From contig CM049313.1 of NCBI GenBank assembly GCA_026874595.1, forward strand, positions 76,500,659 through 76,564,658: a DNA stretch of 64,000 nucleotides, given 5' to 3'. This document shows positions 45,101-48,670 of this stretch, in pieces. The stretch's first letter is position 1, and every line of letters begins with the position of its first letter. The position numbers and the translations under genes were made by a program. A model generated the notes under the pieces. The model was not told the origin of the DNA, searched no databases, and saw only the letters and a program-made list of their open reading frames with translations. Source of the stretch: Sipunculus nudus (Eukaryota > Annelida > Sipuncula > Golfingiida > Sipunculidae).

Positions 45101-48100
45101 CTCCTCACCTGATTATAGGTCAGCCTGCTCTTTCTTTACACATGTATATATTTTTGTTCATGTATGTATATGTGTTTGTTTATGTACATGTGCAAGTTTA
45201 TGTAAGTATCTGTGCGTGTTTATTTATGTATCTATGTGTGTTTATGTTTGTATCTGTGTGTTACACACATGATGACATATTGACTCTCCATGTCAATCAG
45301 CATGTTCCTGTACACGTTGTCTGTGATTGTTTATGTTTATTTATGTACATATCTGTGTGTTTATTTATTTATCTATGTGTTTATGTTTGTATCTGAGTGT
45401 TACACACCTGATGATGACACATTGACTCTCCATGTCAATCAGCATGTTCCTGTACATGTTGTCTGTGATTGTTTATGTTTATTTATGTACATATCTGTGT
45501 GTTTATTTATGTATCTATGTGTTTATGTTTGTATCTGTGAGTGTTACACACCTGATGATGACACATTGACTCTCCATGTCAATCAGCATGTTCCTGTACA
45601 TGTTGTCTGTGATTGTTTATGTTTATTTATGTACATATCTGTGTGTTTATTTATGTATCTATGTGTTTATGTTTGTATCTGTGAGTGTTACACACCTGAT
45701 GATGACACATTGACTCTCCATGTCAATCAGCATGTTCCTGTACATGTTGTCTGTGATTGTTTATGTTTATTTATGTACATATCTGTGTGTTTATTTATGT
45801 ATCTATGTGTTTATGTTTGTATCTGTGAGTGTTACACACCTGATGATGACACATTGACTCTCCATGTCAATCAGCATGTTCCTGTACATGTTGTCTGTGA
45901 TTGTTTATGTTTATTTATGTACATATCTGTGTGTGTTTATTTATGTATCTATGTGTTTATGTTTGTATCTGTGAGTGTTACACACCTGATGATGACACAC
46001 TGACTCTCCATGTCAATCAGCATGTTCCTGTACATGTTGTCTGTTATTGTTTATGTTTATTTATGTACATATCTGTGTGTGTTTATTTATGTATCTATGT
46101 GTTTATGAATGTATCTGTGAGTGTTACACACCTGATGACGACACATTGACTCTCCATGTCAATCAGCATGTTCCTGTACATGTTGTCTGTGATTGTTTAT
46201 GTTTATTTATGTACATATCTGTGTGTGCTTATTTATGTATCTATGTGTTTATGAATGTATCTGTGAGTGTTACACACCTGATGATGACACACTGACTCTC
46301 CATGTCAATCAGCATGTTCCTGTACATGTTGTCTGTGATTGTTTATGTTTATTTATGAACATATCTGTGTGTGCTTATTTATGTATCTATGTGTTTATGA
46401 ATGTATCTGTGAGTGTTACACACCTGATGATGACACACTGACTCTCCATGTCAATCAGCATGTTCCTGTACATGTTGTCTGTTATTGTTTATGTTTATTT
46501 ATGTACATATCTGTGTGTGTTTATTTATGTATCTATGTGTTTATGAATGTATCTGTGAGTGTTACACACCTGATGACGACACATTGACTCTCCATGTCAA
46601 TCAGCATGTTCCTGTACATGTTGTCTGTGATTGTTTATGTTTATTTATGTACATATCTGTGTGTGCTTATTTATGTATCTATGTGTTTATGAATGTATCT
46701 GTGAGTGTTACACACCTGATGATGACACACTGACTCTCCATGTCAATCAGCATGTTCCTGTACATGTTGTCTGTGATTGTTTATGTTTATTTATGAACAT
46801 ATCTGTGTGTGCTTATTTATGTATCTATGTGTTTATGAATGTATCTGTGAGTGTTACACACCTGATGATGACACACTGACTCTCCATGTCAATCAGCATG
46901 TTCCTGTACATGTTGTCTGTGATTGTTTATGTACATATCTGTGTGTTTATTTATGTATCTATGTGTTTATGAATGTATCTGTGAGTGTTACACACCTGAT
47001 GATGACACACTGACTCTCCATGTCAATCAGCATGTTCCTGTACATGTTGTCTGTGATTGTTTATGTTTATTTATGTACATATCTGTGTGTGTTTATTTAT
47101 GTATCTATGTGTTTATGAATGTATCTGTGAGTGTTACACACCTGATGACGACACATTGACTCTCCATGTCAATCAGCATGTTCCTGTACATGTTGTCTGT
47201 GATTGTTTATGTTTATTTATGTACATATCTGTGTGTGTTTATTTATGTATCTATGTGTTTATGAATGTATCTGTGAGTGTTACACACCTGATGATGACAC
47301 ATTGACTCTCCATGTCAATCAACATGTTCCTGTTGTCTGTGATTGTTTATGTTTATTTATGTACATATCTGTGTGTGTTTATTTATGTATCTATGTGTTT
47401 ATGAATGTATCTGTGAGTGTTACACACCTGATGATGACACATTGACTCTCCATGTCAATCAACATGTTCCTGTTGTCTGTGATTGTTTATGTTTATTTAT
47501 GTACATATCTGTGTGTGTTTATTTATGTATCTATGTGTTTATGAATGTATCTGTGAGTGTTACACACCTGATGACGACACATTGACTCTCCATGTCAATC
47601 AACATGTTCCTGTACATGTTGTCTGTGATTGTTTATGTTTATTTATGTACATATCTGTGTGTGTTTATTTATGTATCTATGTGTTTATGATTGTATCTGT
47701 GAGTGTTACACACCTGATGATGACACATTGACTCTCCATGTCAATCAACATGTTCCTGTTGTCTGTGATTGTTATTGTTTATTTATGTACATATCTGTGT
47801 GTGTTTATTTATGTATCTATGTGTTTATGTTTGTATCTGTGAGTGTTACACACCTGATGATGACACATTGACTCTCCATGTCAATCAGCATGTTCCTGTA
47901 CATGTTGTCTGTGATTGTTTATGTTTATTTATGTACATATCTGTGTGTGTTTATTTATGTATCTATGTGTTTATGTTTGTATCTGTGAGTGTTACACACC
48001 TGATGATAACACATTGACTCTCCATGTCAATCAGCATGTTCCTGTACATGTTGTCTGTGATTGTTTATGTTTATTTATGTACATATCTGTGTGTTTATTT

Positions 48101-48670: not shown

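Follow-up and report, generated by a model that had tools for sequence, protein, structure and literature searches.

A tandem array of exon end, 5′ splice site and intron within a class I myosin gene of Sipunculus nudus

How can a gene carry some two dozen copies of one of its own 5′ splice sites in a row, and does such a series serve the gene or is it simply borne? The question is raised by a 64,000-nucleotide stretch of the Sipunculus nudus genome (the window; C8:76500659-76564658 of 1.43 Gb), the minus strand of which holds a class I long-tailed myosin gene of the Myo1e/f type. The original prediction, made from the letters of this DNA, held that the end of one myosin exon, its donor, and about 83 bp of intron stand in tandem about 23 times.

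The myosin gene looks intact as far as seen. A tblastn search with the Octopus protein P0054 places 17 myosin exons in order from 48,670 to about 3,029, and these, joined at AG/GT borders, give 1924 nt with no stop codon, the open frame encoding a motor with its P-loop, in agreement with a class I myosin of Myo1e/f type and with its relatives. The gene extends past the window on both sides, with two N-terminal exons upstream and the TH1 and SH3 exons past the other end, all on the same strand. With the jgi protein P0121 as the tblastn query, the gene spans approximately 106 kb (76,580,685 to 76,474,466), residues 2-1116 aligning to a single strand of C8 apart from a gap at 972-995, the tail matches at P0121 residues 771-837 and 919-971 being weak (E 0.001-0.016); motor, neck, TH1, and SH3 follow one another in one gene, which is the tail architecture of Myo1e/f. 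The window myosin shares 80% identity with P0121, the best among 120 proteins listed, and 74-77% with named lophotrochozoan relatives, and in a 27-row tree it groups with P0121 and a leech protein, without strong support (84/93), a placement that by itself makes an annelid or other lophotrochozoan source only likely. A pseudogene or broken gene was ruled out as far as seen, the 17 exons being open and the remaining exons found, as was an odd coding change caused by the array in its exon, the peptide being identical in P0121. Set against Myo1e/f class I long-tailed myosins, the array-bearing intron is the sole unusual feature here.

The exon concerned, located by tblastn with both P0054 and P0121 and bounded by AG/GT borders, lies between introns of approximately 29.4 kb and 4.8 kb. 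The features of the locus are as follows, a slash marking the border between exon and intron.

48576..48670, minus strand: the real exon, 95 nt (31 residues plus AG), ending in phase 2 and preceding the P-loop exon
48576..48636, minus strand: the last 61 nt of that exon, the array's first exon-like part
48567..48575, minus strand: the real donor CAG/GTGTGTAAC (intron side), U1 duplex -9.3 kcal/mol
45197..48575, minus strand: the homogenised array, with 23 further donors, 22 CAG (48431 to 45407) and one CAT (45268)
45986..46861, minus strand: higher-order repeat, a block of three units (438 bp) repeated back to back (donor-to-donor units 13-15 = units 16-18)
43669..43756, minus strand: the next exon, with the P-loop (S)GESGAGKT, and its acceptor (tblastn, AG/GT borders)
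3028..43756, minus strand: the 16 myosin exons of the window besides 48576-48670 (tblastn, AG/GT borders)

The 95-nt exon (48,670-48,576) terminates ATCATCAG/GTGTGTAAC, and each array unit comprises the final 61 nt of the exon, in some cases shortened, the donor CAG/GTGTGTAAC, and approximately 83 nt of intron. The tandem repeat overlaps the exon–intron junction by TRF, by donor sites, and by unit alignment: TRF reports 45197-48636 with a period of 146, 23.9 copies, and 96% matches, and 24 exact GTGTGTAAC sites run in register from the real donor at 48575 to 45268, the first 23 (the real one and 22 extra) preceded by CAG and the last by CAT. The tandem composition and the roughly 24 near-identical 5′ splice sites that had been predicted were thus both found. 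The real 61-nt exon end (48576-48636) recurs letter for letter in 7 of the 23 other units, a match beyond chance; the non-identical units differ by one to few substitutions, with a 6-nt deletion in three units and a 3-nt deletion in the edge unit. A unit length of 144-146 bp had been given and holds for most units, but the complete units (n = 23) range from 134 to 146 bp: 146 (11), 144 (7), 140 (3), 142 (1), and 134 (1). The array had been placed at 45256-48636, and an eroded continuation to approximately 44,700 had been missed. A search of the genome with the unit and the exon copy returned at least 26 matches, 24 of them at this locus, these counts being lower bounds with simple repeats skipped; the other two are weak (85% and 76%, on C14 and C4) and lie mostly over the intron part of the unit. 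Since the unit holds only the last 61 of the 95 nt, this is not a tandem duplication of the whole exon, and a random satellite with a chance likeness to the exon was ruled out by the in-register donors, the unit alignment, and the genome search.

As donors, the copies are predicted to be a match for the original. All 22 extra CAG donors equal the real donor in matrix score, and the three of them that were folded with U1 each gave -9.3 kcal/mol, the value of the real donor, which is among the stronger ones for this gene (17 donors, with a median of -8.2 and a best of -9.6). In the array, 23 sites, the real donor included, reach -9.3 kcal/mol or lower, against 0.93 expected from the U1-site density outside the array (388,000 strand-bases). 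The exon itself comprises 31 whole codons plus AG, and the frame reaches a TAG at codon 44 from the exon start, before the P-loop, from every one of the 25 later donors tested, of which 23 lie in the array and two in its eroded edge; such a stop had been foreseen.

Acceptors are a different matter. On a matrix built from the gene's 17 acceptors, the highest score among the array's 196 AGs is 0.1, against a median of 5.6 for the real acceptors; the latter were scored leave-one-out, whereas the full matrix was applied to the former. The claim that no acceptor lies between the donors is largely borne out, but 12 of the 196 AGs score above the weakest real acceptor (-0.9); elsewhere in the intron, 31 of 81 AGs do so. 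In composition, the array's transcript strand has 45% A and 22% T, with no pyrimidine run longer than 3. The duplicated segment supplies an AGGT donor (CAG/GT in 22 of the 23 extra units); an acceptor fit for a new intron within that segment was not found by sequence score among the 196 AGs.

Past the homogenised array, further donor-like sites lie in the satellite of the intron.

44700..45196, minus strand: eroded array edge in intronic satellite
45108, minus strand: donor-like CAG/GTGAGG, U1 -11.6 kcal/mol; probable, at a step of 160 from 45268
44868, minus strand: donor-like CAG/GTGAGA, U1 -11.1 kcal/mol; probable, at a step of 240
44724, minus strand: donor-like CAG/GTTGAG, U1 -7.8 kcal/mol; only possible, out of phase, at a step of 144 (one unit length)

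Positions 45108 and 44868 surpass all 17 examined donors of the gene in U1 pairing, and two sites at or below -11.1 kcal/mol in this 497-nt strip have P = 8e-4 by density, for a strip chosen after they had been seen. Position 45108 falls exactly on the array donor in 16 of 16 spanning blastn alignments, which are non-independent because the units are near-identical, and no blastn alignment to the array spans 44868 or 44724. In a donor-anchored comparison, the real exon end is the best match among the gene's 17 at all three edge sites, with shuffle p values of 0.127 (45108), 0.005 (44868), and 0.059 (44724); without anchoring, local alignment of the strip to the 61-nt exon end gives no significant result, since 82 of 400 shuffles do equally well. 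Aligned to a trimer of the unit, 45108 is in phase in 3/4 flank settings, 44868 in 2/4 (in phase at 60 nt or more on both sides, out of phase with 20 nt downstream), and 44724 in 0/4; with the donor core preserved, 16-28, 7-19, and 2-9 of 100 shuffled sequences, respectively, are also in phase, and phase alone is thus a weak guide. The long-flank trimer scores beat all 100 shuffles, with the shared satellite contributing. Satellite sequence makes up the strip between the edge sites, and its relatives (66-81%) are spread over many chromosomes. The motif CAGGTGAG is absent from all six dispersed satellite loci read; of eight other loci scanned, seven lack it on either strand and one (L034) has a single copy, on the reverse strand and off its match. 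Judged by these letters, 45108 and 44868 are probably decayed older units, and 44724 is a possible one.

Arrangements of this kind have precedents. Turri et al. in 1995 reportedly described a minisatellite with multiple splice donor sites in IFI6. Three papers (PMC2572611, PMC4526556, and PMC3618361) cite this IFI6 (6-16, G1P3) minisatellite and its multiple splice donors, and PMC4526556 reports that two downstream repeat units are used, giving three mRNAs. The present array is like IFI6 in being a tandem repeat whose units offer donors, which here are predicted from sequence, and unlike it in having a unit of approximately 144 bp, against one of approximately 12 bp in IFI6, that takes in 61 nt of a motor-domain coding exon, stands about 23-fold, and would add a stop. 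In potato RdRp, a tandem duplication across an intron–exon border led to intron gain, according to PMC4974935; splice signals were copied along in both cases, but there a single duplication on the 3′ side of the intron made a new intron, whereas here the 5′ donor side is present in many copies with no comparable acceptor. In the open-licence literature, nothing closer was found for donor-supplying repeats, exon–intron-crossing repeats, or intronic decoys. The kind is therefore known from IFI6 and potato RdRp, and what is new is that a conserved coding exon has had its donor side copied about 23 times.

We consider it probable, at approximately 0.7, that the array is a composite minisatellite straddling the exon–intron junction, which is tolerated and leaves with the intron, and which a 7-bp microhomology perhaps seeded. 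The exon-side border of the unit lies at TCACAGA in the exon (CGCTC followed by TCACAGACAAC); within the array, TCACAGA is preceded by ATAAACAA (AAACAA at the unit border), and the remaining intron holds AAACATTCACAGAT at two places, with TCACAGA at 45068 and 44806 and AAACAT before it. Dispersed loci of the satellite rarely hold TCACAGA (none in five loci, and one in one locus on one strand), so the motif appears to be a feature of this intron and not of the satellite. An intron with A-rich ACATAAAC-like satellite may have been the starting point, in which the TCACAGA of the exon slipped against, or recombined with, an intronic TCACAGA, and the product would have been a tandem unit of exon tail, donor, and intron piece. 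The unit patterns suggest that unequal exchange then enlarged and homogenised the array, with the units at its far edge eroding.

As for tolerance, the minigenes of Carranza et al. 2022 (PMC9225289) show that between long flanking introns the donor nearest the acceptor across the exon is preferred, even where the rival is of identical strength. The myosin exon resembles those constructs in having identical-strength donors in series after one acceptor and long flanking introns; unlike them, it was not designed with two donors, and holds a natural series of 23-24. Under such rules, the exon's acceptor would find its partner in the closest donor on the far side of the exon; the first of the series should thus be chosen, and the array would be removed whole along with the intron. 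Because the units have donors and no comparably good acceptor, they would hardly be recognised as exons. Occasional use of a later donor would yield the truncated frame ending at the TAG, a likely target of mRNA decay.

A regulatory role was the other functional reading originally offered beside inert expansion. As a decoy array, the many donors would engage U1 and reduce or adjust productive splicing, giving intron retention or premature-stop mRNA. In keeping with this are the 22 donors that equal the real one, the two stronger sites at the eroded edge with the post hoc P value given above, the identical stop from every later donor tested, and the IFI6 units reported as donors in PMC4526556; that donors stronger in U1 pairing than the real one lie downstream also counts against the inert reading, as do the 12 array AGs that outscore the weakest real acceptor. 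Selection on the donors, however, is not visible as conservation and was rejected: an invariant donor 9-mer would arise by chance with a probability of 0.42, and an invariant run of at least 29 occurs in 59% of draws. Among units 2-23 (leaving out unit 1 and edge unit 24), 5 of 61 columns vary in the exon-like part and 8 of 85 in the intron-like part, with mean diversities of 0.0210 and 0.0226, and the block pattern resembles ordinary unequal exchange. Since the donors are not extra conserved, the two parts are equally diverse, and the flanking introns are long, inert expansion fits better and the decoy role is unlikely.

The substitutions raise a further possibility. Four of the five in the exon part of units 2-23 are synonymous (P = 0.017 given the substitution types), and the edge unit adds two nonsynonymous ones, bringing the overall figure to 4/7. 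Such an excess would be unexpected for neutral units unless variants pass through the coding copy, and if real, it hints that variants are filtered there and then spread into the array. The donor type also differs, being GTGAG in the probable eroded units and GTGTGTAAC in the present exon and young units. Exchange between array and exon is hinted at by this different donor, by the synonymous bias, and by the identity of the exon end to distal units. On that footing, the array could be long-lived and subject to concerted evolution, with the exon end as its last unit and with sequence passing between it and the coding exon, the real donor having been replaced and the junction being resupplied by the array, but as a full account this is improbable.

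The array is known from one assembly, and minisatellites usually vary in copy number among individuals. It might be real but much shorter, its length being that of one individual, or be inflated by the assembler, as could be suggested by the exact back-to-back repeat of a 438-bp block and by the presence of identical units close to the two array ends; set against the 13 distinct donor-to-donor units among 22, the diverged edge unit, and the probable eroded units beyond, we regard this as quite improbable. Least credible is a battery of U1 sites guarding the transcript against premature polyadenylation at this point. The 43 AATAAA motifs on the transcript strand of the 3378-nt array (about two per unit, beside the U1 sites) would suit it, but they come along with the A-rich satellite part, and on so T-poor a strand U/GU-rich downstream elements are unlikely.

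On the preferred reading, that of a tolerated composite minisatellite, the locus provides a naturally occurring row of 23 identical donors behind a single acceptor, where the choice of a later donor would cut the motor short; the cross-exon proximity rule thereby becomes testable far beyond two-donor minigenes. It also indicates that tandem repeats can come to include the margin of an exon whose coding sequence is conserved, which raises the question of whether coding sequence could be rewritten by array turnover.

Other repeats occur in the window. A 180-bp tandem repeat of similar consensus lies in two introns of the same myosin gene (7686-9255 and 22684-24429) with no exon contact, and the intron from 43,669 to 20,877 holds long-period tandem repeats at 26690-27936 (292 bp) and 24539-25354 (221 and 278 bp). 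Similar open-frame strings stand in opposite orientation near both window ends, at 529-2333 and 50907-52448 (for example, 1804-1995 minus with 51233-51433 plus, and 635-787 minus with 52262-52414 plus), and these are probably an inverted pair of one mobile element. A perfect 85-bp tandem duplication is found at 53262-53432, with a TA tract of 31 copies nearby at 52098-52158.
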